Below are positions 46,127 to 64,000 of a DNA stretch of 64,000 nt, piece by piece (position 1 is the stretch's first letter; each line of letters starts with the position of its first letter). The position numbers were made by a program, and so were the translations under genes. Below the pieces are notes generated by a model. The model saw nothing but the letters and a program-made list of their open reading frames with translations, was not told where the DNA came from and ran no database searches. Source of the stretch: Hyphomicrobiales bacterium (GTDB lineage Bacteria; Pseudomonadota; Alphaproteobacteria; Rhizobiales; Xanthobacteraceae); the NCBI GenBank assembly GCA_017305535.1, contig JAFKKN010000007.1:124001-188000 (forward strand), read 5' to 3'.

Positions 46127-46138
46127 TTCGGAGAAACA

Positions 46139-46900: not shown

Positions 46901-46909
46901 GTGATGGCG

Positions 46910-47224: not shown

Positions 47225-47225
47225 A

Positions 47226-47909: not shown

Positions 47910-47925
47910 TCCGGAGCCGTTGAGT

Positions 47926-48810: not shown

Positions 48811-48845
48811 CGGCCGATTCTGTTTGACCCACTTGGGAGGGTGCC

Positions 48846-49712
48846 ATGATCCAGTTGAAAGATGTAAGCTACGTTCGTCTCGGTTCATCCAACCTGGAGA
48901 CGGCGGAGACCTTCGCAACCGGTTGTTTGGGCCTTGAGATTGCGGAGCGTGGGAAGAAGACGCTGTACCTTCGGTCCGACGATCGGGCGCACACGTTGTG
49001 CTATTCCGAAGGCGATCCACGGCAACAGACGGTCGGCTTCGAGGTCGAGGACGAAGACGATCTCCAGATGGCAGCCGCGACGCTGGAAGCACTCGGTCAT
49101 CAGGTTGATGCCGGAACCGCGGAGGGCGCCGAGCAGCGGAAGGTCAAGGCTTTCATCGGTTTCCGTGACCCGACAGGTAATCATATCGAACTTGTCGTGC
49201 GCCCCGAGCGGCGCGGGCGGCGTTATTTCGCGACACGCGACGCCGGGATCACGGGCTTCAGCCACATCGGGTTGAATTCGACCGATCCTGTTCGCGACGA
49301 ACGGTTCTGGACTCGGGTCTGCAATGCGCGTGTCAGCGATCGGATCGGCGACATTCCCTTGATGCGCGTGAATGCAATCCATCACACCATTGCGCTGGTC
49401 CGCGCGCCAACAGCCGGCATTCAGCATATCAATCATCAGGTCGAGAGCAACGACGACGTTTTGCGTTCCTATTACTTCCTCAATGGAAAACGTGTCCCGA
49501 TTGTATTTGGTCCCGGTCGGCATCCCACCTCCGGCGCCCGGTTTCTCTACTTCAAGGGACCGGACGATATGATCTTCGAATATTCCGTTGGCGTTGATGA
49601 GATCGAGGACGAGGCCACGCATCGGCCGCGTCAGTTCGGTTTTGAGCCCTCGAGCCTCTGCATGTGGGGCGCGCGACCGGCCGGCATGGCATTGCCGGAC
49701 AGCAACGGGTGA
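48846..49712 (+). CDS. Extradiol ring-cleavage dioxygenase (type I, VOC family)
   Basis: A 288-residue catechol 2,3-dioxygenase-type enzyme. Fe(II) ligands are His140 (GFSHIG), His194 (IQHINHQ) and Glu245 (MIFEYSV); the supporting residues His180, His226 (GPGRH) and Tyr235 are all present. It would cleave the catechol made by the dehydrogenase at 46139, next to a hydroxyl, giving a coloured muconic semialdehyde. The C-terminal RPRQFGFEPSSLCMWG signature fits the group acting on 2,3-dihydroxybenzoate-type acids such as dihydroxy-p-cumate. GGGAGG precedes the start. Confidence 0.9.
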   Translation: MIQLKDVSYVRLGSSNLETAETFATGCLGLEIAERGKKTLYLRSDDRAHTLCYSEGDPRQQTVGFEVEDEDDLQMAAATLEALGHQVDAGTAEGAEQRKVKAFIGFRDPTGNHIELVVRPERRGRRYFATRDAGITGFSHIGLNSTDPVRDERFWTRVCNARVSDRIGDIPLMRVNAIHHTIALVRAPTAGIQHINHQVESNDDVLRSYYFLNGKRVPIVFGPGRHPTSGARFLYFKGPDDMIFEYSVGVDEIEDEATHRPRQFGFEPSSLCMWGARPAGMALPDSNG

Positions 49713-49756
49713 AGTTGTCCCGCCAGCGGCAGGTAAATCAGGGCAAAGGTTGAAAC

Positions 49757-50536
49757 ATGGATTTCGGACTGAAGGGGCGCAAGGCCATTGTCTGCGCAGC
49801 CAGCATGGGTTTGGGCAAGGCATCGGCGATTGCCCTCGGCAAAGAGGGTGCCGAGCTCGTCATCGTCGCGCGTCGACGCGAGATTCTCGCGCAAGCGGCC
49901 GATGATATCGCGGCACAGACCGGGGTGCGTCCGATGACTGTGGTGGCCGATGTGACGACGCCAGACGGTCGCGGGGCGATCATCAGCGCATGCCCCAATC
50001 CCGATATCCTGATTAATAATGCCGGTGGTCCGCCGGCGGGGGATTTTCGCAACTTCGGACGAGACGACTGGATCAAGGCGCTGGATGCCAACATGATCGC
50101 TCCGATCGAGCTGATCAAGGCCACGGTCGACGGCATGATGGCACGCGGATTTGGACGCATCGTCAATGTCACGTCACACGCCGTCAAGGCGCCGGTCGCG
50201 ATGCTGGCTTTGTCCAATGGCGCCAGAACCGGTCTCACCGGGTTTATAGCGGGGCTGGCGCGCACCACGGCGGCGCGCAATGTCACCATCAACAACATCT
50301 TGCCGGGAACGTTCGATACCGACAGGCTGAAGTCGAATCTCACGGCGCTTGCAAAGAACACCGCGCGTGACGTTGCCGCCGTCACCGACGAAATTCGTGA
50401 TGCGAACCCAACCCGACGTTTTGGTCATCCGGACGAGTTCGGCGCCGTCTGCGCGTTTTTATGTTCAGTCCAAGCCGGCTATATGACCGGTCAGAATATT
50501 CTGGTGGATGGCGGCGCGTATCCTGGAACGTTCTGA
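49757..50536 (+). CDS. SDR-family protein with atypical catalytic residues (SNGAR)
   Basis: A 259-residue SDR. The nucleotide loop is altered (CAASMGLG at 13-20), NNAG is at 87-90 and Ser140 is kept. The usual Tyr-x3-Lys pair is Ser153 and Arg157 (LSNGARTGL). Proteins with this SNGAR form are a recurrent subgroup usually named as FabG-like; their reaction is not known to me. It is the last plus-strand gene of the aromatic block, convergent with the MarR gene. It may be an NAD(P)-binding enzyme with a different mechanism. Confidence 0.85.
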   Translation: MDFGLKGRKAIVCAASMGLGKASAIALGKEGAELVIVARRREILAQAADDIAAQTGVRPMTVVADVTTPDGRGAIISACPNPDILINNAGGPPAGDFRNFGRDDWIKALDANMIAPIELIKATVDGMMARGFGRIVNVTSHAVKAPVAMLALSNGARTGLTGFIAGLARTTAARNVTINNILPGTFDTDRLKSNLTALAKNTARDVAAVTDEIRDANPTRRFGHPDEFGAVCAFLCSVQAGYMTGQNILVDGGAYPGTF

Positions 50537-51209: not shown

Positions 51210-51223
51210 ATACATTAGCGTAT
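51210..51223. promoter_or_regulatory. MarR operator copy 1
   Basis: ATACATTAGCGTAT lies 47 bases before the MarR gene start. Its reverse complement matches copy 2 at 13 of 14 positions. Position fits autorepression. Confidence 0.7.
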
Positions 51224-51295
51224 TTTAAAGGATGGGCGCCGATTTCACGAGTGTGGATCCCGATGCCAGCGGGGAGCAGCCAATTTACAAAATAC

Positions 51296-51309
51296 GTACG
51301 CTAATGTAT
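51296..51309. promoter_or_regulatory. MarR operator copy 2
   Basis: GTACGCTAATGTAT, 66 bases before the SDR gene at 51375. It is nearly identical to the reverse complement of copy 1 and fits GTAC-N2-TA-N2-GTAC with one end change. Confidence 0.7.
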
Positions 51310-51374
51310 GATATCTATAAGTATCTGTTTCGAAGCCGCGATGCCGACTGGCGCGCGCGGTCGCAAGGAAGGAC

Positions 51375-52265
51375 ATGCCGCCGATGTTTGATGCTGCCCT
51401 GCTGCAAGGCAAACGCATTCTGATCACCGGTGGGGGCACCGGGCTCGGCAAGGAAATGGCCGTCGGATTTGCGGCGCACGGCGCGCATGTCTACATCTGC
51501 GGCCGCCGTCGGGAGGTGCTGGATCAGGCGACGCGGGAGATCCGCGAACGATCCGGCGGGCGGGCGGATGCCCTGATCGCGAACGTGCGCGACGCCGAAA
51601 GCATCGATGCCATGATGACCGCGATCTGGGCTGATGGTCCGCTGACCGGCCTTGTCAACAATGCGGCGGCCAACTTTCTGGCGCCGACCGAGAGCCTGTC
51701 GCCGCGCGGCTATGAGGCCGTTCGTTCGACCGTCATGGACGGCTCCTTTTATGCCTCGCTCGCCTGCGGCAAACGTTGGATTGCCGCGGGACTGCCCGGC
51801 GTCATTATCAGCAATCTCGTCACCTGGGTCTGGACCGGATCGGCCTATGTGGTGCCGTCCGCGATGGCGAAGGCGGCCGTGCATGCGATGACCATGTCTC
51901 TCGCGGTCGAGTGGGGTCCCAAGGGCATTCGCGTCAATGCGATCGCGCCCGGCCCGTTCCCGACCGAAGGGGCGTGGGACAAGCTCAATCCGCTGGCGGA
52001 AACCGGTGTCGGCGCGACACAAGCGGACGAGGTGCCGCTGCGCCGCTTCGGCAAGATGGACGAACTGCGCAACCTTCTGATTTTTCTGATGTCGGATGGC
52101 AGCAGCTACATCACGGGCGACACGATCAGCATTGATGGGGGCCATCATCTGGCGGCGCCCAGCACTTTCGCGGGCCTGGCGAAGTTGTCGCCCGCCGATT
52201 GGCAACGCGCGCGCGAAGCCATTCAGGCATCGGTGGACAAAGAAAAGCAGGCCCGCTCGATCTGA
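51375..52265 (+). CDS. 2,4-Dienoyl-CoA reductase-like SDR
   Basis: A 296-residue SDR that aligns along its length with mitochondrial-type 2,4-dienoyl-CoA reductase as I recall it: GSAYVVPSAMAK for GSGFVVPSASAK, then LAVEWGPKGIRVNAIAPGPF and a long C-terminal tail (LSPADWQRAREAIQ). As in that family Ser162 replaces the usual SDR Tyr before Lys166. However, the Tyr that DECR uses instead aligns with Trp151 (LVTWVWTG), so the proton donor is unclear. It probably reduces an unsaturated acyl-CoA with NADPH. AAGGAAGGA precedes the start, with operator copy 2 upstream. Confidence 0.83.
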   Translation: MPPMFDAALLQGKRILITGGGTGLGKEMAVGFAAHGAHVYICGRRREVLDQATREIRERSGGRADALIANVRDAESIDAMMTAIWADGPLTGLVNNAAANFLAPTESLSPRGYEAVRSTVMDGSFYASLACGKRWIAAGLPGVIISNLVTWVWTGSAYVVPSAMAKAAVHAMTMSLAVEWGPKGIRVNAIAPGPFPTEGAWDKLNPLAETGVGATQADEVPLRRFGKMDELRNLLIFLMSDGSSYITGDTISIDGGHHLAAPSTFAGLAKLSPADWQRAREAIQASVDKEKQARSI

Positions 52266-52318
52266 CGGACGCGCAATTCGCCGGACCTCCGTGCACAGCC
52301 AACAGCAAGGGACCGCTA

Positions 52319-53119
52319 ATGAACCTCGCGACGACGACTGAAACGTTTGATTGCGCCGTTGATCACGGTCTTGCCCATATCGTGTTGAATCGACCCGATC
52401 GTGGGAACCCGATCGACGGTGATTTCTGCCGCGAGTTCAATGTCTGCATGGCCGAGCTTGGCGAGCGGAACGACGTGCGTTCGGTTCTGATCTCCGCGCG
52501 CGGTAGGCTGTTCAGCGTCGGCGGAGATCTGTCGTCCCTGGTGAGGCAGGGCGATGCATTGCCGAGAACGATCAAGGCGTGGACGGCGGACCTTCATGTG
52601 GCGATCGCCCGCATGGTTCGCATGCGGGCGCCGGTGGTCGCGGCCGTTCATGGTAATGTCGCCGGCGGCAGTGTGTCGCTGATGGCTGCCGCGGATATTG
52701 TTGTCATGGCGGAATCGGCGCGCATCTCCGCCGCCTTTCCCAAAATCGGCTTCAGTCCGGATAGCGGTTCGACAACGACCCTCACGCGTCGGATAGGGGT
52801 GGCGCGGGCGAAGCGGTTTTTTCTGCTGGCCGAGACGCTGGATGCCGAGACCGCTCTGTCGCTTGGCCTCGTCGACAGGGTAGTGGCGGACGATGTCGTG
52901 CAGGAAGAGGCCGAACGAATAGCGCGGGAATTTGCCGATGGGCCCACCGAGGCCTATGGCGCGATCAAAAAGCTGTTTGCTCAGACGGGTGATCGCTCAT
53001 TCGAAAGCCAATTAGAGGAGGAGGCGGAGACGCTGGCCGCTATTTCCAGGACGGCGGACGCACGTGAAGGCGTCAAGGCGTTCGTGGACAAGCGAAAACC
53101 CGCATTCGTCGGGCGGTGA
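52319..53119 (+). CDS. Crotonase-family acyl-CoA isomerase (PaaG/ECI-like)
   Basis: A 266-residue crotonase. Both hydratase glutamates are absent: GGSVSLM has Ser120 and FPKIGFSPDSGS has Lys at the second site. Asp148 in SPDSGS is the acid used by PaaG- and ECI-type isomerases. It probably shifts a double bond in a cyclic or unsaturated acyl-CoA. ATG 52319 has AAGGGA upstream; the longer frame to 52199 overlaps the SDR gene. The 53-bp gap after the SDR suggests co-transcription from operator copy 2. Confidence 0.85.
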   Translation: MNLATTTETFDCAVDHGLAHIVLNRPDRGNPIDGDFCREFNVCMAELGERNDVRSVLISARGRLFSVGGDLSSLVRQGDALPRTIKAWTADLHVAIARMVRMRAPVVAAVHGNVAGGSVSLMAAADIVVMAESARISAAFPKIGFSPDSGSTTTLTRRIGVARAKRFFLLAETLDAETALSLGLVDRVVADDVVQEEAERIAREFADGPTEAYGAIKKLFAQTGDRSFESQLEEEAETLAAISRTADAREGVKAFVDKRKPAFVGR

Positions 53120-53188
53120 TCCGCACGCGGCCGCGCCCGCGGACGCGACAAACTTGCGCAGTTGCAAGCTGTCGTAATCTACAATAAG

Positions 53189-53202
53189 GTACACTAGTAA
53201 AC
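53189..53202. promoter_or_regulatory. MarR operator copy 3
   Basis: GTACACTAGTAAAC lies 148 bases before the acyl-CoA ligase at 53350. The left half-site is perfect; the right is degenerate (AAAC for GTAC). Confidence 0.6.
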
Positions 53203-53230
53203 TAATCCGGACGCAGAATTCGGAAGGCGA

Positions 53231-53279
53231 GAGCATGATCCCGACAAGTGGAAACCGGCTTTCGGAAAAGATCACGCTC
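53231..53279. repeat. Rhizobiales-type intergenic palindromic repeat
   Basis: GAGCATGATC at the left and GATCACGCTC at the right are inverted copies with one mismatch. The inner AAGTGGAAACCGG segment and a CCGACAAG/CTTTCGG pair complete the fold. The sequence matches a palindromic repeat I know from many Bradyrhizobium-group genomes. It sits in the leader of the ligase gene. Confidence 0.7.
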
Positions 53280-53349
53280 CAACAACAAGACAAGCAAAGA
53301 GGCTGATCCACTGCGGTTGGATCGGAACCGAGTGTCTCGGGAGGGATAG

Positions 53350-54975
53350 ATGATTGCCACGGCCGTCGAACACAATATATCCCATGCCAGCTTTCGGGAA
53401 GCCGGATACTGGCTGGATAAGACCGTCGATCAGCTCCTCGCCGAAGCGGTTGCCAGGACGCCGGACAAAATATCGATCGTCGCGGATCGCGCAGACCGTA
53501 CGCAGTCCCGCCGCCTGACTTACAAAGAGTTGGATAACCTCGCTGACCGCGCGGCCACGTCGCTGCTCCGTCTTGGCATCGGTCGTGGTGACGTCGTGAC
53601 GGTGCAGTTACCGAACTGGTGGGAGTTTGTCGTCGCCGCTTTCGCCTGCGCCAAGATTGGCGCGGTGATGAATCCGGTGATGCCGATCCTCCGGGAGCGG
53701 GAGCTGACCTACATCCTGAATTTCTGCAACACGAAAGTCTTCATCGTTCCGAAGACCTATCGTGGTTTCGACTACGCCGCGATGGCGCACGGCATGCGCG
53801 GCGATCTGCCGGATCTCAAGCAGATCATCGTCGTGGATGGCGAGGGCGACTCCAGTTTCGAGCGCATGCTGCTGGCGACCGAGCCAGGGCCGCTTCCGTC
53901 GCGTGCGAGCCCGGACGACATGTCGGTCCTGATGTTCACCTCGGGGACGACCGGTGAGCCGAAAGGTGTCATTCACACATCGAACTCGTTGATTGCCTGC
54001 TCCAAGGCACTGACGACCCGGTTCGGTCTCGATTCAAGTGACGTTCTGCTGGTCGCCTCACCGGTCGGGCACATGACGGGCTATGCCGCGATCGTCCTGC
54101 TTGCGGTTTACCTTGGCGGCACGATGGTTCTTCAGGATGTCTGGGACGCAAAGCACGGCGTCGACCTGATGTCACAGGAAGGCGTGACCTATACCGCCGC
54201 ATCGACACCATTCCTCAGCGACATTTGCGAGGCGGTGAAGGCGGGCGCGCCCCGTCCGCAATCGCTGCGCTCGTTTCTGTGCGGCGGCGCGCCGATTCCT
54301 TCGGTGTTGATCGAGCGGGCGGCCAAGGAACTGGACCTGAAGGTATGCTCGCTCTGGGGAATGACGGAAGTTCTTTCCGGCACATTGACCGAACCGTCGC
54401 GTGTCGCGGAAAAGTCCGCCAGCACTGACGGCAGGCCTCAGGACGGGATGGAGGTCAACATCGTTGATTTCGATGGCCAGCCGCTTCCCGCGGGAGAATC
54501 GGGCAGGCTGCTTGTCCGGGGCAGCCAGATGTTCAAGGGGTATTACAAGCGACCCGACTTGCCGACGTTCGATGGCGAAGGATGGTTTGATTCCGGCGAC
54601 CTCGCCTACATGGACGCGGACGGTTACATCCGCATTTCTGGCCGGGTGAAGGACATCCTGATCCGTGGCGGCGAGAACGTTCCCGTCGCCGAGATCGAAA
54701 ACCTGCTCTACAAGCATCCGTCCGTCGCCGCGGTTGCCGTGGTCGGCTACCCGGACGCGCGGCTCGGTGAGCGGGGCTGCGCATTTGTTGTTCCCCGTCC
54801 CGGAACGGAGATCGATCTTGCTTCGGTACAAGACTATCTGCGCGACGCCAGAATGGCCAAGCAGTTCTGGCCGGAGCGCGTTGAGATCGTCGCCGAGCTT
54901 CCTCGCACCGCCAGCGGCAAGATTCAGAAGTTCCGATTGAAGGAGATCGCCGCGACGTTCGCTGATGTGACTTAG
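53350..54975 (+). CDS. Acyl-CoA ligase, cyclohexanecarboxylate-CoA ligase (AliA)-like
   Basis: A 541-residue ANL ligase. A3 motif FTSGTTGEPKG is at about residue 197, LWGMTE at about 336, SGDLAYMDADG at about 416, ILIRGGENVPVAEIENLLY at about 437, and the A10 lysine in TASGKIQK near 522. The FWPERVEIVAELPRT ending and the presence of BadH- and BadI-like genes suggest activation of a cyclohexane-carboxylate-type acid; this is inference. GGGAGGG precedes ATG 53350. Operator copy 3 and an intergenic repeat lie in the 230-bp upstream gap. Confidence 0.87.
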   Translation: MIATAVEHNISHASFREAGYWLDKTVDQLLAEAVARTPDKISIVADRADRTQSRRLTYKELDNLADRAATSLLRLGIGRGDVVTVQLPNWWEFVVAAFACAKIGAVMNPVMPILRERELTYILNFCNTKVFIVPKTYRGFDYAAMAHGMRGDLPDLKQIIVVDGEGDSSFERMLLATEPGPLPSRASPDDMSVLMFTSGTTGEPKGVIHTSNSLIACSKALTTRFGLDSSDVLLVASPVGHMTGYAAIVLLAVYLGGTMVLQDVWDAKHGVDLMSQEGVTYTAASTPFLSDICEAVKAGAPRPQSLRSFLCGGAPIPSVLIERAAKELDLKVCSLWGMTEVLSGTLTEPSRVAEKSASTDGRPQDGMEVNIVDFDGQPLPAGESGRLLVRGSQMFKGYYKRPDLPTFDGEGWFDSGDLAYMDADGYIRISGRVKDILIRGGENVPVAEIENLLYKHPSVAAVAVVGYPDARLGERGCAFVVPRPGTEIDLASVQDYLRDARMAKQFWPERVEIVAELPRTASGKIQKFRLKEIAATFADVT

Positions 54976-54998
54976 CTGCGAAGCTTCATCCACTTTCC

Positions 54999-55802
54999 TT
55001 ACTGATCACCATAAGAGGGTGCGCGTCGTTCCCGAAACGCGGCCACGGCTTCAGCATGGTCGTTCGTCTCGAGAAGAATGACTTGCTGACGATCCTCCAT
55101 CATCAGTGCGGCGTCGAGACTCGGAGCGTCCACGAGCATGTTGAGGGCCTGTTTCGTCAATCGCAGGCCCATTGGAGACACATTCAACATGTCCGTTGCA
55201 AACTCGATTCCCTTCGCGAGTAATTCGTCGCCCGGCACGATATCGCTGATGAGGCCGATCGCCTTGGCGCGGTCGGCCTTCAGGAAACGGCCCGTCATGA
55301 GAAGTTCGGAGGTGACGGAAAGGCCGACCAGTCGCGGCAACAGGTAGCCCGAACCCATGTCGCAACCGCCGACACCGATGCGGATATAGGCCGCATTCAT
55401 TCGCGCATCCGGAGTTGCGAAGCGAATGTCGCAAGCCAGCAGGAAGGAGAAACCCGCGCCGCACGCAGCGCCGTGCACGAGGCCGATGATCGGCTGCGGG
55501 CAGGAACGCATCAGCCGGATGACGCCGGAATAGTTTTGTTGCATCTTGAGCTGGCGCTGAGGACGGCCTCCGCCGGGCGCGGCAAACGCATCCGATCCGA
55601 GTTCGGCGCCGGCCGAGAATTCAGAACCGTGGCCACGCAGGATGACCACGCGCGTCGCCGGCCGATCGTGAAGTCCCGAGAAGTACTCAGTCAGTTCGCC
55701 GATCATGTCCGGCGACACGGCGTTCAGCTTGGCGGGCCGGTTCAACGACAGGATGTCGATGGCGCCGCGAGATTCAACGGTAATCGTCGTGGGCTGTGTC
55801 AC
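54999..55802 (-). CDS. Enoyl-CoA hydratase/isomerase family protein
   Basis: A 267-residue crotonase. The oxyanion-hole segments are FSAGAELGSD and GAACGAGFSFLLACD. The two hydratase Glu positions are replaced (GFSFLL; AAYIRIGVGG), and an Asp is present in GGCDMGSGYLLPRL, as in isomerases and C-C hydrolases. The reaction is uncertain. It starts 40 bases from operator copy 4 and is divergent from the SDR at 55906, and convergent with the ligase gene. Confidence 0.85.
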   Translation of the reverse strand: MTQPTTITVESRGAIDILSLNRPAKLNAVSPDMIGELTEYFSGLHDRPATRVVILRGHGSEFSAGAELGSDAFAAPGGGRPQRQLKMQQNYSGVIRLMRSCPQPIIGLVHGAACGAGFSFLLACDIRFATPDARMNAAYIRIGVGGCDMGSGYLLPRLVGLSVTSELLMTGRFLKADRAKAIGLISDIVPGDELLAKGIEFATDMLNVSPMGLRLTKQALNMLVDAPSLDAALMMEDRQQVILLETNDHAEAVAAFRERRAPSYGDQ

Positions 55803-55841
55803 GTGCGGACCTCCATTCGCTCGTTGTCATTTGAATTTATA

Positions 55842-55860
55842 GTAATATAGTGTACTATAT
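55842..55860. promoter_or_regulatory. MarR operator copy 4 in a divergent promoter
   Basis: GTAATATAGTGTAC (55842-55855) fits the 14-bp motif. It overlaps a perfect ATATAGT-GT-ACTATAT palindrome (55845-55860). It lies 40 bases from the crotonase start and about 50 from the SDR start, so one site can control both genes. Confidence 0.65.
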
Positions 55861-55905
55861 CTGGAGGCAACGCGAAACGTGCCGCCGATGTCGGGAGATT
55901 TCGAG

Positions 55906-56781
55906 ATGTCATATCAATCCGTGTTCAGGCCGGATCTGTTCAAAGGGCAGACGATCATTGTGACCGGCGGCGGCAGTGGCATCGGACGTTGCACGGCCCA
56001 TGAGCTGGCCGCTCTCGGTGCGAATGTCGCGATCGTCGGCAGGACAATGGAGAAACTCGAGGAAGTACGACGAGAGATCGAAGCCGATGGCGGTCGGGTG
56101 ATGAGCCAGGCCTGCGACATTCGTGATGAGGCCATGGTGGTCGCCGCAATCGAGGCGGTGCTTGTCAGATTCGGACGCATCGACGGTCTCGTCAACAACG
56201 CCGGCGGTCAATTCCGCGCGCCCCTGAAGACAATCTCCACGAAGGGATTCGAGGCGGTGGTGCGCAATAACCTGACCGGCGGCTTCATCTTCATGCGCGA
56301 AGCCTACAATCGCTGGATGGAGGCGAACGGCGGGGCGATCGTGAACATCATCGCTGACATCTGGCACGGCTGGCCTGAGTTCGGCCACTCGGCGGCGGCG
56401 CGCGGCGGCATGCTGACCCTGACGGAAACGGCGGCCTGCGAGTGGTCGTCATCCGGCGTGCGTGTGAATGCGGTGGCGCCGGGTGGAGTCGTGTCGAGCG
56501 GTTTCGATACCTACACGCCGGAAATGCAGAAGAAGCTGCTGGATTTTACCGAACGCGTGCCACTCCAGCGCTTCGGCACCGAAGCGGAAATATCGGCCGC
56601 CATCACCTATCTGCTTTCACCGGCGGCCGCCTATATCACTGGCTCTTGCCTGCGCGTTGATGGCGGAACGCCGAACGCGCGGACCACCTGGAAGCTGGAG
56701 CCACACAGCCGCAGCGTGCCGTTCGAGGGATTCCATCGCGCCACGTTGCCGGACATGATGAGGCGGAAAGCCAGCGTGTAG
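55906..56781 (+). CDS. Enoyl-CoA reductase-like SDR (PECR type)
   Basis: A 291-residue SDR with TGGGSGIG at 20-27 and NNAGG at 97-101. In place of Tyr-x3-Lys it has Ser162-x3-Arg166 (GHSAAARGGM), close to the HSGAARAGV block I recall from peroxisomal trans-2-enoyl-CoA reductase. SPAAAYITG near the C-terminus also fits that family. It probably reduces an alpha,beta-unsaturated acyl-CoA with NADPH. ATG 55906 has GGGAG at good spacing; GTG 55879 is too early. Confidence 0.83.
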   Translation: MSYQSVFRPDLFKGQTIIVTGGGSGIGRCTAHELAALGANVAIVGRTMEKLEEVRREIEADGGRVMSQACDIRDEAMVVAAIEAVLVRFGRIDGLVNNAGGQFRAPLKTISTKGFEAVVRNNLTGGFIFMREAYNRWMEANGGAIVNIIADIWHGWPEFGHSAAARGGMLTLTETAACEWSSSGVRVNAVAPGGVVSSGFDTYTPEMQKKLLDFTERVPLQRFGTEAEISAAITYLLSPAAAYITGSCLRVDGGTPNARTTWKLEPHSRSVPFEGFHRATLPDMMRRKASV

Positions 56782-56792
56782 CGGTTGATCGT

Positions 56793-57806
56793 CTAGTCCA
56801 TCGCGATGATCAGCTTGCCATAGTTTTCACCGCGATAGAGCCGGGCAATCGCGCCGGGCGCATGTTCGAGCCCCGACAGAATTTCCTCGTCGTAGACGAT
56901 CTTGCTCTCAAGCGCGAGCCGGGTCAGACGATCCGCGGCCGTGTCATATTCAGCGACATGATCGAGGACGACGAAGCCGGACCAGCGCAGGCGCTTGGTC
57001 AGCACCTCCCGCTCGGGCCGAGGTCCCGTCGGAACCGGTGTCCAGGATGCATTCGCGGCGGTGCCACACTGAATGATGCGTCCGCGCACGCGCATTGATC
57101 TGATGGCGGCATCGGCGATCGCGCCGCCGGTGTTGTCGAAGTAGATATCGTTTCCCTGCGGGCATGCCTCGCGGATCGCGGCGGCGATATCCTTGGTCTC
57201 CCGGTAATTGATCATGCCTTGATAACCGTAGCGCGTCCGTGCCAGCGCAGCTTTCTCGGCCGAGCTGGTCAGGCCGACAGCACGGCAGCCCGCGATGCTG
57301 GCAAGCTGCCCGACAAAACTTCCGACGCTGCCGGCGGCGGTGGACACCAGAACGTGTTCGCCCTGTTTCGGATCGCCGAGTCCGTGGAAAGCGAGGTAGG
57401 CGGTGAGACCGTTGATGCCGAGCAGGCTCAAATTCGCGCTGAGCGGCAACGCGGAAGGATCGACCCGACGCAGAACGGCGTCCGGCGCGGCAACGCAGTA
57501 GGTCTGCCAGCCGAACCAGCCGTAAAGGAATTCACCCGCCTTGAACCCGGGCGCATTGCTTTCGATGACTTCGCCGACGGCAAGCGCCCGCATCGGCATA
57601 TCGAGCGGGACGGGCGCGCTGTAGTTGCCTTCGTCATTGGCCCATCCGCGCTGTGCCGGATCGACTGAAAGATAGCGATTCCTGACCAGAATCTGGTCGG
57701 GACCGGGAGAGGGCGCGGGCTCCGTTACAAGCGCGAAATGCTCCGGTTGAGGAATGCCTTGCGGCCGTTTCACGAGCAGCACCTGACGATTGGTTCGGGC
57801 TTGCAT
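56793..57806 (-). CDS. NADP-dependent MDR oxidoreductase (prostaglandin reductase/2-alkenal reductase type)
   Basis: A 337-residue zinc-independent MDR protein. The N-terminal GroES-like domain has RYLSVDPAQRGW; the Rossmann motif is STAAGSVGSFVG at 155-166. No zinc-ligand cysteines are seen. The LTR/PGR subgroup reduces the C=C bond of enones and enals. Its role may be to reduce a ring or side-chain double bond in this pathway. It starts 19 bases from operator copy 5 and is convergent with the SDR gene. Confidence 0.88.
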   Translation of the reverse strand: MQARTNRQVLLVKRPQGIPQPEHFALVTEPAPSPGPDQILVRNRYLSVDPAQRGWANDEGNYSAPVPLDMPMRALAVGEVIESNAPGFKAGEFLYGWFGWQTYCVAAPDAVLRRVDPSALPLSANLSLLGINGLTAYLAFHGLGDPKQGEHVLVSTAAGSVGSFVGQLASIAGCRAVGLTSSAEKAALARTRYGYQGMINYRETKDIAAAIREACPQGNDIYFDNTGGAIADAAIRSMRVRGRIIQCGTAANASWTPVPTGPRPEREVLTKRLRWSGFVVLDHVAEYDTAADRLTRLALESKIVYDEEILSGLEHAPGAIARLYRGENYGKLIIAMD

Positions 57807-57824
57807 GAGAGGCTCCTCAGATTA

Positions 57825-57838
57825 GTACGCTTGTGTAC
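57825..57838. promoter_or_regulatory. MarR operator copy 5 in a divergent promoter
   Basis: GTACGCTTGTGTAC has both half-sites perfect. It lies 19 bases from the MDR gene start and 97 from the MaoC gene start, between two divergent units. Confidence 0.72.
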
Positions 57839-57934
57839 GAATTAAAGATACGCTAGAATCCGATCGGATGACAAGGCGGTCGACGAGCCGGCGCTTGCAT
57901 CGATCCTTCCTGACGTTCAGCGAGAGGCGGTACA

Positions 57935-58387
57935 ATGGCAGGACTCTATTTCGAGCAGTTCGCTGTCGGACAGAGGTTTGTCCATGAGATCCGACGAACC
58001 GTAACGGACATGGACAATATCCTGTTTTCATCACTGACCTACAATCCGGCGGCGGTCCATATTGATCACGAATATTCCAAGAGCACCGAGTTCGGAAAGC
58101 CGCTGATGAATTCGATCTTTTCGCTCGGTCTCATCATCGGTCTGTCGGTTCAGGATACGACGCTCGGTACGACCGTCGGCAATCTGGGAATGGAAGACAC
58201 GAGATTTCCGCGCCCCGTGTTCGGCGGTGATACGCTCCGTGCCGAAACGAGCGTCGTCGCCGTCAGGGAAAGTAAGTCGCGCCCGACGCAGGGCATCGTG
58301 ACATTCGAGCATCGCGGCTTCAACCAGCGTGACGAAGAGGTGGTGTACTGCCGCCGCAACGCGCTGATGATGAGGCAACCGGCATGA
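57935..58387 (+). CDS. MaoC-family (R)-specific acyl-CoA dehydratase
   Basis: A 150-residue hot-dog-fold protein. The hydratase-2 motif region is visible as TYNPAAVHIDHEYSKSTEFG (about 28-47), with the Asp/His pair typical of MaoC enzymes, slightly changed from the usual D-x4-H. VFGGDTLRAETSVV follows. It hydrates enoyl-CoA or dehydrates hydroxyacyl-CoA, possibly a methylmalyl-type compound given the lyase that overlaps it by four bases. It is first gene of a three-gene operon led by operator copy 5. Confidence 0.87.
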   Translation: MAGLYFEQFAVGQRFVHEIRRTVTDMDNILFSSLTYNPAAVHIDHEYSKSTEFGKPLMNSIFSLGLIIGLSVQDTTLGTTVGNLGMEDTRFPRPVFGGDTLRAETSVVAVRESKSRPTQGIVTFEHRGFNQRDEEVVYCRRNALMMRQPA

Positions 58388-59265
58388 GGCTTCGCTCGCT
58401 TCTCTTCGTGCCGGCCGATAGCGAGCGCAAGTTCGCCAGGGCTGCGACCGTCAGCGCCGATGCCTTGATCCTCGACCTCGAGGATTCCGTCGCGCCGGGC
58501 CGCAAGGCATTTGCGCGTGATGTCGTCAGGCAATTGCTGAACGGCGAAACGAGGGATTGGTCGTTTCTGGTCCGGATCAATCCATTCGGCACCGGCCTGA
58601 CGCTGGAAGATCTGGCGGCCGTGGTACGTCCGGGCCTCGACGGCATCCTGATTCCAAAGGTCGATGGAATTGAAGACGTCGATCTTATCTCGCATTATGT
58701 CGACGCGCTGGAAGTCGCGGCGGGTATCGCACCCGGTCACGTCAAACTGGTGGTCGTGGCAACCGAAACACCTGCCGCCATGATCGGCTTCAGCGGATAC
58801 GCCCGCAAGAACAGGCGGCTGGTGGCGATGACATGGGGCGCGGAAGATCTGAGCGCCGCGCTTGGGGCCATCACGCCGCGCGAGGCGGATGGTAGCTGGA
58901 CTTTCCCCTATCAAGTCGCACGCGCCCAGTGCCTGTTTGCGGCCGGCGCTGCCAGTGCGGCGGCGCTTGAAACGCTCTACGTGGATTTCAAGGATCAAGA
59001 GGGGCTGGCGGAAAGCTGCAAGCTTGCGCGGCGGGATGGATTCGTCGGCCGCATCGCGATCCACCCCGATCAGGTCGCAACCATCAACGCGTGCTTCACG
59101 CCGTCGGATGACGACATCGCGCATGCACGCCGCGTCGTCGCGGCATTCGACGCGCAACCGGATGTCGGCACGGTCGGCATCGACGGCAAGATGTATGACA
59201 TTCCGCATCTGGTTGCGGCCCGAAGAACCCTTGCGTCGGTCGGAGAGGGAGCAACCCATGGATAG
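58384..59265 (+). CDS. CitE-like CoA-ester lyase (HpcH/HpaI family)
   Basis: A 293-residue TIM barrel of the citrate lyase beta/malyl-CoA lyase group. It opens LRSLLFVPADSERKFARAA and has the metal and CoA motifs ALILDLEDSVAPGRK (about 28-42), VVVATETPAAM (about 121) and MTWGAEDLSAALG (about 149). It should cleave or condense a beta-hydroxyacyl-CoA such as malyl-CoA or methylmalyl-CoA, or hydrolyse the thioester. Pairing with MaoC is like beta-methylmalyl-CoA handling, but the substrate here is unknown. Confidence 0.86.
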   Translation: MRLRSLLFVPADSERKFARAATVSADALILDLEDSVAPGRKAFARDVVRQLLNGETRDWSFLVRINPFGTGLTLEDLAAVVRPGLDGILIPKVDGIEDVDLISHYVDALEVAAGIAPGHVKLVVVATETPAAMIGFSGYARKNRRLVAMTWGAEDLSAALGAITPREADGSWTFPYQVARAQCLFAAGAASAAALETLYVDFKDQEGLAESCKLARRDGFVGRIAIHPDQVATINACFTPSDDDIAHARRVVAAFDAQPDVGTVGIDGKMYDIPHLVAARRTLASVGEGATHG

Positions 59266-60442
59266 ATCGTTTTCCAACCAGCCCGACGTGTCGGACGATC
59301 ATGCCGCAATCAGAGAGGGTGTTCGCGCGGTGGTCACGCGCTTCGACGACGACTACTGGCTGGCGCGCGACGACGATGGCGAGTTTCCCCGCGCGTTCCA
59401 TCGCGCGATGGCGGATGCCGGCTGGCTTGGCATCACCATGCCTGAACAATATGGCGGCGCAGGTCTCGGCGTCACCGAAGCGGCGGTGATGATGCATGAG
59501 GTGGCGAGCCATGGCGGCGGCATGGCGTCGTCGTCCGCCGTCCATATCAATCTGTTCGGGCCGCATCCGATCGTCGTGAAAGGAACCGACGACCAGAAGC
59601 GACGCTGGATTCCGCGGCTTGTCTCCGGCGAGGACCAATGCTGCTTCGGTTTCACCGAGCCGGATGCCGGCTTGAACACGACACGCATCAAGACCTTTGC
59701 CGAGAAAGTGCCGGGCGGCTATCGCGTTCACGGACAGAAGGTCTGGACGTCGACGGCGCAGATCGCCAACAAGATCATGCTGCTGACGCGAACCACGAAG
59801 TTCGAGGATTGCCGGCGACCGACCGACGGGATCACCATCTTCTATACGGATCTCGATCGTTCGAAGATCGAAGTCCGGCGCATTCCCAAGATGGGCCGCA
59901 AGGCGGTGGATTCCAACGCGATCTTCATCGACGGCCTGTTCATTCCGGACAAGGACCGGATCGGTGAGGAAGGGAAGGGCTTCTCCTACATCCTGCACAG
60001 CCTCAATCCCGAGCGAATTCTGATCGCGGTCGAGGCCATCGGGATCGGGCAGGATGCCTTGCGCCGTGCGACGCGCTATGCCCGGGAGCGCGTGGTGTTC
60101 GATCGGCCCATCGGCCAGAACCAGGGCATTCAGCACCCGCTGGCCGAGAAGTGGATGTATCTTGAATCCGCGTGGCTGATGGCGATGCGTGCGGCCTGGC
60201 TGTACGACAACGGCAGGCCCTGCGGCGCCGAAGCCAACAGCGCAAAGTTTCTCGGGGCTCGTGCCGGCCATGATGCCGCGTGGCAGGCGATCATGACCCA
60301 TGGCGGGTTTGGCTATGCCAAGGAGTATCACGTCGAACGACTGTTCCGCGAAGTGTCAATCACCCGGCTTGCTCCCATCACCGAGCAACTGATGCTGAGT
60401 TTCATCGCGGAGAAAGTGCTCGAACTGCCGAAAAGCTATTGA
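59258..60442 (+). CDS. Acyl-CoA dehydrogenase, atypical catalytic loop
   Basis: A 394-residue acyl-CoA dehydrogenase. CFGFTEPDAGLNTTRIKTF is the flavin block. The helix-G region has LNPERILIAVEAIGIG with a Glu at the isovaleryl-CoA dehydrogenase position. The C-terminal loop reads LAPITEQLMLSF and lacks the YEGT glutamate. The ATG at 59258 follows GGAGAGGGAG and overlaps the lyase gene by 8 bases; a much longer open frame upstream is a shadow. It oxidises an acyl-CoA of the pathway, possibly branched or cyclic. Confidence 0.88.
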   Translation: MDRSFSNQPDVSDDHAAIREGVRAVVTRFDDDYWLARDDDGEFPRAFHRAMADAGWLGITMPEQYGGAGLGVTEAAVMMHEVASHGGGMASSSAVHINLFGPHPIVVKGTDDQKRRWIPRLVSGEDQCCFGFTEPDAGLNTTRIKTFAEKVPGGYRVHGQKVWTSTAQIANKIMLLTRTTKFEDCRRPTDGITIFYTDLDRSKIEVRRIPKMGRKAVDSNAIFIDGLFIPDKDRIGEEGKGFSYILHSLNPERILIAVEAIGIGQDALRRATRYARERVVFDRPIGQNQGIQHPLAEKWMYLESAWLMAMRAAWLYDNGRPCGAEANSAKFLGARAGHDAAWQAIMTHGGFGYAKEYHVERLFREVSITRLAPITEQLMLSFIAEKVLELPKSY

Positions 60443-60472: not shown

Positions 60473-61618
60473 TCAGAGATTGCGTGAAATCAATTCGCGC
60501 ATGATCTCCGAGGTACCACCGTAGATGCGCAGCACGCGAGCATCCGCGAACAGCCGGCAGATCTCGTATTCGCGCATGAAGCCATAGCCGCCGAAGAATT
60601 GCAGGCACTGATCGACCAGCCGTCCGTGCATTTCAGTGGTCCAGAGCTTGGCGGTCGATGCCGCATAGGTCGTGAGTTCGCCGCGAATGTGCTGGGCGAG
60701 ACATTGATCGACATAGGCCCATCCGACCATCAGGTCGGATTTCAGATCGGCGAGCTTGAAGCGCGTGTTCTGGAATGAGCCGATCGGTTGCCCGAACGCC
60801 TTGCGCTCCTCGACGTATGCCTTGGTGATATCGAAGGCCTTCTGCGCGGCGGCGATGGAGTGCAGCGCGATGGTCAGCCGCTCCTGAGGCAATTCGCTCA
60901 TCAGTGCCGCCATCGCGCCGCCCTCCGCGCCGAGAAGGTTGCCGACGGGGACGCGAACCTGATCGAAAAACAGTTCCGACGTATCGGACGACAGATGGCC
61001 GAGCTTGTCGAGGTTGCGGCCATGCCGGAAACCCGGGCGGTTGGTCTCGACCAGGACCAGACTCATGCCGCGCGATCCGCCGTCCGCATTCGTGCGCGTC
61101 ACCACGATCACGAGATCGCACATCTGGCCGTTCGAGATGAATGTCTTCTGGCCGGAGATCACGAATTCATCGCCCTCACGAACCGCGCGTGTCCGGATGC
61201 CCTGAAGATCGCTGCCGGTGCCGGGCTCGGTCATCGCGATTGCGCAGACCGCTTCGCCGGCAATCATGCGGGGCAGCCAGGTCTTCTTCTGCTCTTCTGT
61301 GCCGTAGCTGAGGAGATAGCCGCAGCAGACGTCGTTGTGCACGGAGAAATCCGTCGCCGGACCTGCAAATCCCGAATAGGACAGTTCTTCGATGATGACC
61401 GCGTTGTGGCGGAAGTCGCCGCCGATTCCGCCGTACGCCTCGGGCACCTGTGGGCAGAGCAGGCCGGCCTGACCGGCGGCCGGCCACAGCGCCCGGTCGA
61501 TGATCCCGGCTTTCTCCCAGTCCGCGAAATGCGGCCGTATCCGGGTGTCAGCAAAGCGCCGAACACTTTCGCGCAGCAGCGCATGTTCTTCGTCAAAGAC
61601 CGGGCGGTTTTGCAGCAT
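60473..61618 (-). CDS. Acyl-CoA dehydrogenase, isovaleryl/cyclic-acid type
   Basis: A 381-residue acyl-CoA dehydrogenase. The flavin block is IAMTEPGTGSDLQGIRT (about 127-143). The likely catalytic base is Glu246 in LPQERLTIAL, as in isovaleryl-CoA dehydrogenase, since the C-terminal loop is YGGTSEIMRE with Gly at the usual YEGT Glu. It is similar to the dehydrogenase at 63351, sharing TSELFFD. It may be a cyclohexanecarboxyl-CoA or side-chain dehydrogenase, by context with BadI and BadH. It is last of the four minus-strand genes at the right end. Confidence 0.9.
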   Translation of the reverse strand: MLQNRPVFDEEHALLRESVRRFADTRIRPHFADWEKAGIIDRALWPAAGQAGLLCPQVPEAYGGIGGDFRHNAVIIEELSYSGFAGPATDFSVHNDVCCGYLLSYGTEEQKKTWLPRMIAGEAVCAIAMTEPGTGSDLQGIRTRAVREGDEFVISGQKTFISNGQMCDLVIVVTRTNADGGSRGMSLVLVETNRPGFRHGRNLDKLGHLSSDTSELFFDQVRVPVGNLLGAEGGAMAALMSELPQERLTIALHSIAAAQKAFDITKAYVEERKAFGQPIGSFQNTRFKLADLKSDLMVGWAYVDQCLAQHIRGELTTYAASTAKLWTTEMHGRLVDQCLQFFGGYGFMREYEICRLFADARVLRIYGGTSEIMRELISRNL

Positions 61619-61699: not shown

Positions 61700-62494
61700 T
61701 CAGGTCGCGAATTTGTGGAAGTCGGGATCGCGCTTCTCGTTGAACGCCGCAACGCCTTCCTTCGACTCGGCAGTCTCGTAAAACAGCTTGACGGCGTAGA
61801 GGCCGAAACTGCTGATGCCGCGAATGCTGTCGGAGTCGGCGTTGAAGGAACGCTTCGCAAGCGCGATGGCCGTCGGCGACCGCTGCCCGAGTTTATCGGT
61901 CCAGTCCTTCACGGCGGCGTCGAGCTGCGCGGCGGGAACGACCTTGTTGACGAGGCCCATTTCGCGCGCCTGTTCCGCGGTGTAACGCTCGTTGAGAAAC
62001 CAGATCTCACGCGCTTTCTTGTCGCCGACATGGCGCGCCAGCAAGGCGGTGCCCCACCCGGGATCGACGGAGCCGACCTTGGGGCCGACCTGACCGAACT
62101 GCGCGGTATCGGCGGCAATCGTGAGGTCGCAGAGCGTCGCCAGCACATTGCCGCCGCCGATGGCAAATCCATTGACGCGCGCGATGACCGGTTTCGGAGC
62201 ATCGCGGATCAAACTTTGCAGTTCGTCGATCGGAAGACCCACCACGCCGCGGCCGTCGTACTGACCTTCGTGCGCCGACTGGTCGCCGCCCGTGCAGAAC
62301 GCCTTGTCGCCGGCGCCGGTCAACACGATGCTGGCGACCTGCCGATTGTTCGCCGCAAGCTGAAAGGCTTGAATCAATTCCTCCAGCGTTTGCCCGCGGA
62401 AAGCGTTGTAGACTTTCGGCCGGTTGATGATGATCCACGCTGCGCGATCGCGGACTTCGTAGATGACGTCGGTGAACTGTTTCGGGTCTGTCAT
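61700..62494 (-). CDS. badI: 2-Ketocyclohexanecarboxyl-CoA hydrolase (BadI-like)
   Basis: A 264-residue crotonase-fold ring-cleaving hydrolase. Long stretches match R. palustris BadI as I recall it: AWIIINRP, DKAFCTGGDQSAHEGQYDGR, KPVIARVNGFAIGGGNVLAT and GQVGPKVGSVDPGWGT. Asp144 in SVDPG is the MenB/BadI-type catalytic residue. The enzyme adds water to a 2-oxocyclohexane-carboxyl-CoA and opens the ring to pimelyl-CoA. The BadH-like gene lies 18 bases upstream, as expected for consecutive steps. The true ring may carry substituents. Confidence 0.88.
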   Translation of the reverse strand: MTDPKQFTDVIYEVRDRAAWIIINRPKVYNAFRGQTLEELIQAFQLAANNRQVASIVLTGAGDKAFCTGGDQSAHEGQYDGRGVVGLPIDELQSLIRDAPKPVIARVNGFAIGGGNVLATLCDLTIAADTAQFGQVGPKVGSVDPGWGTALLARHVGDKKAREIWFLNERYTAEQAREMGLVNKVVPAAQLDAAVKDWTDKLGQRSPTAIALAKRSFNADSDSIRGISSFGLYAVKLFYETAESKEGVAAFNEKRDPDFHKFAT

Positions 62495-62512: not shown

Positions 62513-63271
62513 CTAGATCATGTTCATTCCACCGGAGACCGAGATGGTCTGTCCGGTAATGTATTTGCCGTCGTCCGAGGCCAGCATGGCGACGATCCCG
62601 CCGTAGTCTTCGGGTTCGCCCATGCGGCGTAGCGGAATTCCGCGCACCATCGCGTCCTTCCACTTCATGGCGTGCTCGCCTTCGCCAAGGACGGCGGCCA
62701 TCATCGGCGTGTTGGTCGGCCCAGGGCAGACGGCATTCAGCAGGACATTCTTGCGCGCCAGTTCGCGCGCCAGCGATTTGGTGAAGGAGATCAACCCACC
62801 CTTGCAGGCCGAGTAGACTGCCTCATCACTTGTGCCGACGCGCGCGGCATCGGAGGCGATGTTGACGATCCTTCCGCCGCCACGCTCGGCCATCAACGGC
62901 GCAACCGCCTTGTGCGTATTGAGCGGACCATAGAGATTGATGCGGATGATCTTGTCCCAAAGCTCCTTGTCGGTCTTCAGGAACGGCGTCGGTCGATCCC
63001 ATCCCGCGTTGTTGACCAGCAGCCAGATCGGGCCGAGCTCGGATTCAACCCTGGCCACCGCGTCATTGACGGAGGCCGCGTCTCCGACGTCAACCGCGTA
63101 GCTTTTGATATGCGCGTGAGGTGCGAGTTCAGCGGTTTCTTCGCCAGCTTTCGGGTTGATGTCGAAGATCGCCACCTTGCAACCTTCCTGCGCCAGACGC
63201 AGCGTCAGCCCGCGTCCGATTCCCTGTCCTCCACCGGTCACGATGGCGACTTTTCCAGATAGGCCTTTCAA
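62513..63271 (-). CDS. badH: 2-Hydroxycyclohexanecarboxyl-CoA dehydrogenase (BadH-like SDR)
   Basis: A 252-residue classical SDR with the cofactor loop TGGGQGIG at 12-19, NNAGWD at 87-92 and catalytic Ser140, Tyr153 and Lys157 (YSACK). The segments NIASDAARVG and FTKSLARELARKNVLLNAVC resemble BadH. It oxidises the ring hydroxyl to the ketone that the BadI-like enzyme cleaves, with NAD. It keeps the full catalytic set, unlike three other SDRs of this region. GGAGACG lies upstream, and the gene is in one operon with flanking dehydrogenases. Confidence 0.87.
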   Translation of the reverse strand: MKGLSGKVAIVTGGGQGIGRGLTLRLAQEGCKVAIFDINPKAGEETAELAPHAHIKSYAVDVGDAASVNDAVARVESELGPIWLLVNNAGWDRPTPFLKTDKELWDKIIRINLYGPLNTHKAVAPLMAERGGGRIVNIASDAARVGTSDEAVYSACKGGLISFTKSLARELARKNVLLNAVCPGPTNTPMMAAVLGEGEHAMKWKDAMVRGIPLRRMGEPEDYGGIVAMLASDDGKYITGQTISVSGGMNMI

Positions 63272-63350: not shown

Positions 63351-64000
63351 TCACGAAGCCGCCTTGTCCTTCCGCAAGGAAAACCCGTGCTGCGAATACA
63401 TTTGTCGTGCGATGATCGTCTTCATGATCTCGATCGAACCGCCGGCGATCTTGACGATCCGCGCATCCGCGTAGGCGCGGGCGATCGGGTATTCCCACAT
63501 GTAACCCCAGCCGCCGAATAGCTGGAGGCACTCGTCGACGGTTTCGCAATGAAGCTCGGACGTGAACATCTTCGCCATCGCCGCATCGACGGGGTCGAGT
63601 TTTCCTTCCATGAACAGCGAGATGCATTTGTCGGTAAAGACGCGCGCGACGGTTGCCTTGGTCTTGAGAGCCGCGAGCTTGAACTGAGTGTTCTGGAAGT
63701 CGGCGAGCTTCTGGTCGAACACGCTGCGCTCGGCGGTGTATTGCAGCGTCCAGTCGATGACCGTTTCGACCACTGTCGCCGAACGAATGGCCTGCGCCAG
63801 ACGTTCCTGCGACAGCTTGGTCATCATCAGCGCGAAACCCTTGCCTTCCGCGCCAAGCATGTTGCTGGCGGGGATGCGGACGTTGTCGAAAAACAGTTCC
63901 GATGTGTCCTGCGCTCGCATGCCGAGCTTCTCGAGATTGCGGCCGCGCTTGAAGCCCGGCCGATCGCTCTCGACGATGAACAGCGTGACCCCCTTCGCGC
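63351..64000 (-). CDS. Acyl-CoA dehydrogenase, truncated at the window edge
   Basis: The C-terminal about 215 residues of an acyl-CoA dehydrogenase; the frame is open to the right edge, where it reads KGVTLFIVESDRPGFKRGRN. The TSELFFDNVRIPASNMLGAE block and the helix-G base LSQERL are present, and the C-terminal loop is IAGGSIEIMK without the YEGT Glu. It is a paralogue of the enzyme at 60473. It is the most upstream gene seen of the BadH-BadI operon; its promoter and any sixth MarR operator are outside the window. Confidence 0.9.
   Translation of the reverse strand, partial: AKGVTLFIVESDRPGFKRGRNLEKLGMRAQDTSELFFDNVRIPASNMLGAEGKGFALMMTKLSQERLAQAIRSATVVETVIDWTLQYTAERSVFDQKLADFQNTQFKLAALKTKATVARVFTDKCISLFMEGKLDPVDAAMAKMFTSELHCETVDECLQLFGGWGYMWEYPIARAYADARIVKIAGGSIEIMKTIIARQMYSQHGFSLRKDKAAS

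Follow-up and report, generated by a model that had tools for sequence, protein, structure and literature searches.

A 64,000-bp stretch of the genome of a Hyphomicrobiales bacterium (contig C7:124001-188000 of the source genome; hereafter, the window) encodes a MarR-family transcriptional regulator beside a run of enzyme genes, and here we describe the regulon assigned to this regulator. Comparative sequence evidence makes it very probable that the window MarR controls about 19 genes through predicted operators located in six promoter gaps. The assignment is strongly supported by operator sites outside the window, by sites in every one of the orthologous loci used, by a gene-by-gene placement that includes its negatives, and by the pattern of presence and absence in 12 other genomes. 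The sites, their placement, their conservation, and their co-occurrence with the MarR gene are established by computation. Among the matches listed in a literature search, no paper was found that describes this regulon in its title or in the opening of its abstract. In excerpts of a comparative study of proteobacterial regulons (PMC5343134), one MarR regulator is named, HmgS of tyrosine breakdown.

The earlier note on this DNA had reported five copies of a 14-bp motif written as GTAC-N2-TA-N2-GTAC. All five 14-mers were recovered where it had placed them and in the orientation it quoted (Table 1), and each of them lies within a gap 5' of the genes that it had named. While the sites are real, the formula proved weak and incomplete, the motif being longer and palindromic: none of the five sites fits the formula perfectly, three having one mismatch and two having two. 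With up to three mismatches, 83 matches were counted in the window vs. 60.2 +/- 8.0 in shuffled sequences, that is, barely above chance. With at most one mismatch, the formula occurs at 12 places in the 4.73-Mb genome, five of which are inside a 17-kb stretch around the MarR gene (C7:175296-192540); these five include 53179, which overlaps the 53189 site in another frame, and 68527, which lies outside the window. Of the seven places outside this cluster, six are within an open frame of at least 100 amino acids and one is not. The reversed control of the formula yielded 64 places genome-wide vs. these 12, and in a further genome-wide pattern search the reversed control gave 78 and 68 rows vs. 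28 and 21 for the pattern. The reversed controls roughly equal or exceed the patterns in number, so the argument is built on how the sites cluster and are conserved, not on how many there are in total. The clustering is the unusual feature, and the GTAC formula is not over-represented in the genome.

A matrix built from only the five noted sites was then run over the window and the adjoining 36 kb on its right. Between positions 1 and 51,000 of the window, no match scored 12 or higher (best, 11.2). To the right of the window, three matches were identified, at 68527 (score 20.7; the copy also recovered by the GTAC formula), 68675 (15.9), and 64559 (12.6), in continued coordinates, and all three fall within two gaps separating divergent genes. 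The 64559 gap has an acyl-CoA dehydrogenase operon on its minus-strand side and a crotonase-CaiB gene pair on its plus-strand side; the earlier note had pointed to the operon beginning right of base 64000 as a place to look for a further copy, and one is indeed located there. The gap containing 68527 and 68675 separates the gene of an ABC substrate-binding protein (SBP; minus strand) from a weakly kinase-like gene followed by an SDR gene (plus strand). The start codons at both gaps were read by eye. Within the window, the matrix also detected a weaker site at 57848 (12.9), 23 bp from the 57825 site, and one weak match inside a coding gene (62551; 13.3). In total, nine sites were identified in six promoter gaps. 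The regulon of at least eight genes proposed from the five sites is supported as a regulon and was understated in size, the predicted membership being about 19 genes when operon limits are taken from gene spacing.

Conservation of the sites was analyzed in loci carrying relatives of the window MarR. One scan provided 35 such loci, of which 34 were used and one, L110, was left out (partial match, 52% over 42 residues). The five-site matrix found a site scoring at least 14 in 34/34 loci. At this threshold the loci contain 128 sites, whereas 100 column-shuffled matrices gave 7.4 on average and 33 at most; at a threshold of 12 the corresponding values are 157 sites, 30.8, and 110. The 12 loci that are not of the Bradyrhizobium type contain 23 sites scoring at least 14 (shuffled mean 2.2, maximum 7). 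According to a simple gene caller, 106 of the 128 sites are in gaps, which make up 14.3% of the DNA, and 22 are coding; we think that several of these "coding" sites are in over-extended 5' ends, as with 68527 and 68675. For this reason, homology-based starts were used for placement by gene, in which a site was sought at most 300 bp upstream. A gene was counted if its identity reached 45%, its coverage 60%, and the DNA available upstream of it 300 bp.

In the Bradyrhizobium-type loci, sites precede the MarR gene in 22/22 cases, the DECR-like SDR gene in 20/20, SDR2 in 20/20, ECH_b in 20/21, MaoC in 18/21, MDR in 15/19, SBP in 10/11, and CaiB in 1/1. No site was found in these loci in front of the operon-internal genes (ACAD1 0/20, HpcH 0/21, ECH_a 0/18, ACAD2 0/4, ECH_c 0/3), in front of ECH_d (0/1), or in front of the neighbouring genes TetR (0/6), VOC1 (0/4), VOC2 (0/5), and SDR0 (0/3). 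In Mesorhizobium, Rhodobacterales, and other genomes with a different gene order, the sites precede ACAD3 (6/8), the DECR-like SDR (7/8), ECH_d (6/6), and, in one case each, the ligase (1/1) and MDR (1/1) genes; lower counts were obtained for ECH_a (2/7) and HpcH (1/4), and none for APH (0/1), ACAD1 (0/3), and ECH_c (0/9).

To derive the full operator, 137 sites were reduced to 83 by removing near-duplicates (at least 80% alike), leaving nine sites from this genome and 74 from orthologous loci; the coding match at 62551 was excluded. The core of these sites reads GTAC[G/A]CTAGTGTA[C/T]; with both strands pooled, the predicted operator is a 24-bp near-palindrome, WWWT-N-GTACRCTAGYGTAC-N-AWWW, with ATAT as the commonest flank on both sides. 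The flanks are conserved though they were not used in site finding: position 16 is A in 71/83 sites and position -1 is T in 53/83. A refined 20-mer, WTNRTACRCTWGYRTAYNAW, was also searched for. In the source genome it has three places with at most one mismatch, all of them in the cluster, and eight places with at most two mismatches, six of them clustered; of the two outsiders, one is under an open frame with coding-like composition, and the other is between amidohydrolase and oxidoreductase genes. A spread of hits over many unrelated promoters at the same score, which the earlier note had named as a refutation, was not found at this high stringency. The sites of the window contributed to the 20-mer, so that its enrichment there cannot count as independent evidence; the independent tests are the five-site matrix beyond the window, the same matrix in the orthologous loci, and the presence or absence of sites in other genomes.

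For the last of these tests, the 20-mer was run, with no more than one mismatch allowed, over the entire sequence of 12 other genomes from the same family. In 6/6 genomes with a MarR orthologue (79-86% identity), sites are present, at 16 distinct places of which 14 are within 30 kb of the MarR gene, and in 0/6 genomes lacking the orthologue (best MarR match no better than E 3e-19) was any site found; two of the site-free genomes belong to the same genera (g25, g27) as carriers. The reversed 20-mer has one place across the 12 genomes. Together with the shuffled matrices, the genomes without a MarR orthologue led to the rejection of a chance origin of the sites. They also bear on the possibility that the sites are operators of another transcription factor encoded elsewhere, with the adjacent MarR as a bystander. 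Such a reading is favoured by the distant group of loci, where most MarR genes are without a site of their own (4/14 have one), but the site follows the MarR orthologue even among genomes of one genus, the MarR genes of the Bradyrhizobium type have their own site in 22/22 cases, and genes of related MarR paralogues are themselves preceded by a palindrome with this 14-bp frame (16/23 of one helix class with at most one mismatch). We therefore regard a bystander role as improbable.

In the source genus, none of 7 other genomes searched reaches E 1e-28 in its MarR matches, and genomes of other genera of the family have matches of 79-86%. From this pattern, the MarR cluster may have been gained by transfer.

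Several predicted operators overlie hexamers resembling a core promoter. The 51296 site is inside TTTACA-17-TATGAT (51284-51312) in the gap between the MarR and DECR-like SDR genes, the 55842 site overlaps TTGTCA-16-TATAGT (55824-55851), and the 57848 site overlaps TTGTCA-18-TATCTT on the minus strand. A weak pair, TTTAAA-16-TATGAG, spans the 51210 site, and a weaker promoter-like pair spans the 68527 site as well. The weak pairs aside, promoter-like pairs underlie sites in 3/4 gaps scanned; a script scan over the 57825, 64559, and 68675 sites found none. The position of the operators on core-promoter-like hexamers at several gaps makes repression the likely mode of action. Alternatively, most of the motif could be a core-promoter signature conserved among co-expressed genes, an extended -10 element that is read by a sigma factor and not by a repressor: positions 12-17, TAYNAT, are similar to a -10 hexamer, and four script-found pairs have their -10 at that offset. 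However, the palindromic core GTACRCTAGYGTAC is not a promoter consensus, and its near-perfect copies are nearly confined to the MarR cluster in the genomes searched, on which ground a pure core-promoter signature was rejected and is considered very unlikely.

The genes downstream of the predicted operators (Table 1) suggest a catabolic pathway for ring-containing acids. The winged helix-turn-helix MarR domain of the regulator is recognized above the curated cut-offs. The AliA-like ligase and the BadH- and BadI-like enzymes all score below theirs, which characterizes them as diverged relatives, and the gene set can be read as a diverged alicyclic-acid route. In two bad-ali clusters with an AliB above the family cut-off, the homologues of ECH_c are 74% (L155) and 65% identical to it. 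We give about even chances that the job of the pathway is the breakdown of an alicyclic carboxylic acid, in which BadI-type ring opening would precede dehydrogenase-hydratase-lyase steps. Routes for itaconate, isoflavones, and steroids were considered as well, and no support was found for them. The itaconate (Ich-Ccl) and mesaconyl-CoA hydratase/lyase modules resemble the present cluster in combining a MaoC hydratase with an HpcH/CitE lyase, placed here beside an acyl-CoA dehydrogenase, but the MaoC and lyase proteins of the window are only distantly related to the itaconate module and far below its equivalog cut-offs.

Table 1. Predicted operators and genes of the proposed MarR regulon in the window
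Feature	Position	Strand	Location, closest family, and score
Operator ATACGCTAATGTAT	51210..51223	-	Upstream of MarR gene
Operator GTACGCTAATGTAT	51296..51309	+	MarR/DECR-like SDR gap
Operator GTACACTAGTAAAC	53189..53202	+	Ligase gap; overlapping second match at 53179
Operator GTACACTATATTAC	55842..55855	-	ECH_b/SDR2 divergent gap
Operator GTACGCTTGTGTAC	57825..57838	+	MDR/MaoC divergent gap; 0 mismatches to refined 20-mer
Weaker second site ATACGCTAGAATCC	57848..57861	+	3 mismatches to refined 20-mer
MarR-family regulator, 174 amino acids	50639..51163	-	Pfam MarR_2 (PF12802) 56.2 bits (cut-off 27); MarR (PF01047) 50.7 bits (24.6)
DECR-like SDR	51375..52265	+	Closest NCBIfam 2,4-dienoyl-CoA reductase, 239 bits (below cut-off 318)
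Crotonase-family ECH_a, second gene after SDR	52319..53119	+	Pfam ECH_1 166.6 bits
Acyl-CoA ligase	53350..54975	+	Closest to AliA (cyclohexanecarboxylate-CoA ligase), TIGR03208 708 bits (cut-off 792)
Crotonase-family ECH_b	54999..55802	-	Pfam ECH_1 142.2 bits
SDR2	55879..56781	+	Pfam adh_short_C2 163.2 bits
MDR-family reductase	56793..57806	-	Nearest curcumin reductase, 285 bits (below cut-off 440)
MaoC hydratase	57935..58387	+	Nearest RipB/Ich, 138 bits (cut-off 340)
HpcH/CitE-type CoA ester lyase	58384..59265	+	Nearest RipC/Ccl, 159 bits (cut-off 375)
Acyl-CoA dehydrogenase ACAD1	59243..60442	+	
Acyl-CoA dehydrogenase ACAD2	60473..61618	-	Last gene of operon starting ~64532; acryloyl-CoA reductase 288 bits (640); AliB TIGR03207 229 bits (575)
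BadI-like hydrolase ECH_c	61700..62494	-	TIGR03210 418 bits (cut-off 468)
BadH-like SDR3	62513..63271	-	TIGR03206 310 bits (cut-off 431)
Acyl-CoA dehydrogenase ACAD3, cut by window end	63351..64000	-	Starts ~64532, ~26 bp from the 64559 operator

A number of results weigh against a MarR regulon with this function. With up to three mismatches the 20-mer has 42 places in the source genome, nine in the cluster and 33 outside, and its 62 rows (29 and 33) hardly differ from the 55 (28 and 27) of the reversed control. Some of the conservation of the flanks may reflect a -10 hexamer rather than operator contacts. Chance could account for the one promoter-like pair between the MarR and DECR-like SDR genes (shuffle mean 0.5), and no such pair was found in the ligase gap (53189 site), where, moreover, only 11/16 Bradyrhizobium-type loci have an operator. 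In the rearranged loci of other genera, placement is low not only for MarR but also for MaoC (1/7), SDR3 (2/9), and ACAD2 (4/8), and SDR2 (0/2) and SBP (0/1) are without a site. As for the pathway, none of the enzymes in the window passes the cut-off of the bad-ali equivalogs TIGR03206, 03207, 03208, and 03210; both dehydrogenases of the BadH/BadI-like operon match acryloyl-CoA reductase best (288 and 331; cut-off 640), with AliB lower (229 and 227; 575); and the Pfam scores of the kinase-like gene right of the window are below cut-off.

The AliA-, BadH-, and BadI-like enzymes also raise the question of whether the regulator is an orthologue of BadR and its regulon the known bad-ali regulon. 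The regulons of BadR, the MarR-type repressor of the bad-ali genes, in Rhodopseudomonas palustris and Aromatoleum sp. CIB likewise have a MarR protein beside genes for a CoA ligase, an acyl-CoA dehydrogenase, and BadH- and BadI-type enzymes, with an operator in a promoter region, and a CoA-thioester effector is plausible here too, release by cyclohexanecarboxyl-CoA or 2-oxocyclohexanecarboxyl-CoA being characteristic of BadR; they differ from the present regulon, which extends over six promoter gaps and adds MaoC-lyase-ACAD, CaiB, and substrate-binding protein genes. Orthology to BadR is scarcely credible and was largely refuted by sequence identity, helix region, and operator: the MarR proteins beside the two bad-ali clusters with a cut-off-passing AliB (L155 and L156) are only 23% and 26% identical to the window MarR, and their recognition-helix region reads RQNLAG vs. 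GKVAVG in the window MarR (aligned by eye). A published study (PMC9795900) gives the BadR operator of R. palustris as CAATacATTG and that of Aromatoleum as CAAN4TTG. Neither has a match in the six gaps of the present regulon; CAAN4TTG has four places between 44 and 72 kb, none in those gaps. In the gaps of the two bad-ali clusters, by contrast, AAATATATTG and AAATACATTG are present. The exact CAATNNATTG is absent from the two bad-ali loci also, these two versions being two changes and one change away, respectively.

The SlyA subgroup of MarR proteins provides the best match of the window MarR among solved structures (3q5f SlyA, 53 bits) and in NCBIfam (NF002926, 66 bits), the latter being below the equivalog cut-off of 120. 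Distant MarR paralogues among 100 relatives (31-40% identity) often have, 5' of their own genes, a palindrome that keeps the 14-bp frame. Within 250 bp upstream and with at most one mismatch, genes encoding PI[TS]-type helices have TAAGC-N2-GCTTA in 16/23 cases and TACRC-N2-GYGTA in 1/23, and genes encoding GKV/GKA-type helices have TACRC-N2-GYGTA in 30/47 cases and TAAGC-N2-GCTTA in 1/47. The separation of the classes is less sharp with at most two mismatches (18 and 11 of 23 for PI[TS]; 39 and 9 of 47 for GKV/GKA). These counts are not independent, because many of the genes are close relatives; moreover, the same genes appear twice in L042/L071 and L043/L073, likewise in L044/L074 and L047/L075, and two genes are double-counted in the 47. 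At palindrome positions 4/11, the TAAGC-N2-GCTTA sites of the paralogues with PI[TS]-type helices have A/T, and the predicted operator of the window MarR, whose helix is GKVAxG, has C/G. This suggests a specificity switch in which the recognition helix would determine the base at these two positions. We lean slightly towards the view that a separate MarR clade with the helix LDVGKVAxG commands an undescribed regulon for alicyclic or branched acids across the orders Rhizobiales and Rhodobacterales via GTACRCTAGYGTAC, and that it parted from a SlyA-like clade (LDxxPITLTR, TAAGC-N2-GCTTA) by a single symmetric base-pair change in the operator, A:T to C:G at positions 4/11, together with a change of the helix.

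Additional MarR genes were observed around these clusters. A second copy, 59% identical, is present in the same cluster at L101:17807-18229 and at L104:18280-18714, and genomes G341 and G209 have second copies too (49% and 48%), approximately 11-12 kb from the first. The plasmid records L111-L114 (Paraburkholderia, Sphingopyxis, Diaphorobacter, Sphingobium) encode MarR relatives (45-51%) close to genes for MaoC, a CoA ester lyase, and an acyl-CoA dehydrogenase; these plasmid-borne distant relatives have partial sites only, some of which are spaced in 10-bp steps in L114 and L115 (Azoarcus). Elsewhere in the source genome, a MarR gene of 192 amino acids and a divergent arylmalonate-decarboxylase-like/amidase/ACAD operon have a common gap, L136:7280-7560 (G000:C15:269280-269560), containing two GTAC-containing near-palindromes 136 bp apart (269325 and 269461); this is probably a separate MarR regulon. 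Adjacent to the cluster in the window, positions 45605-50536 encode a ring-hydroxylating beta subunit, SDRs, a TetR protein, and two glyoxalase/dioxygenase-type proteins (Pfam). TetR and VOC homologues are near the MarR cluster in several Bradyrhizobium loci too, with no such operator in front.

For the MarR regulon as a whole, we infer a mechanism that includes operator binding by a dimer, repression, an effector, operon boundaries, and a substrate. As is usual in its family, the window MarR would act as a homodimer, bound to the 24-bp near-palindrome. Unliganded, it would repress its own and the catabolic promoters, as operators on -35/-10-like hexamers suggest, with divergent gene pairs having one regulated gap in common. 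The predicted regulated units are MarR / DECR-like SDR-crotonase; the ligase; crotonase / SDR; MDR / MaoC-lyase-ACAD; ACAD-BadH-like-BadI-like-ACAD / crotonase-CaiB; and the ABC substrate-binding protein / weakly kinase-like gene-SDR. Following the general chemistry of alicyclic breakdown, the pathway would proceed by CoA activation, dehydrogenation, hydration, oxidation, and BadI-type ring opening, and then by dehydrogenase-hydratase-lyase steps. A pathway intermediate, probably the ring acyl-CoA formed by the AliA-like ligase, would release MarR, so that the breakdown of ring acids would be kept off until needed.

The inferred regulon turns an anonymous run of enzymes into one co-regulated pathway with named member genes, some of them beyond the window, and the five-site matrix finds the same regulon in other genomes. 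The set of promoters and operators could be used for a possible acyl-CoA sensor. Because recognition helix and operator base differ together between related MarR clades, the way in which MarR proteins select the DNA that they bind can be put to a direct test.

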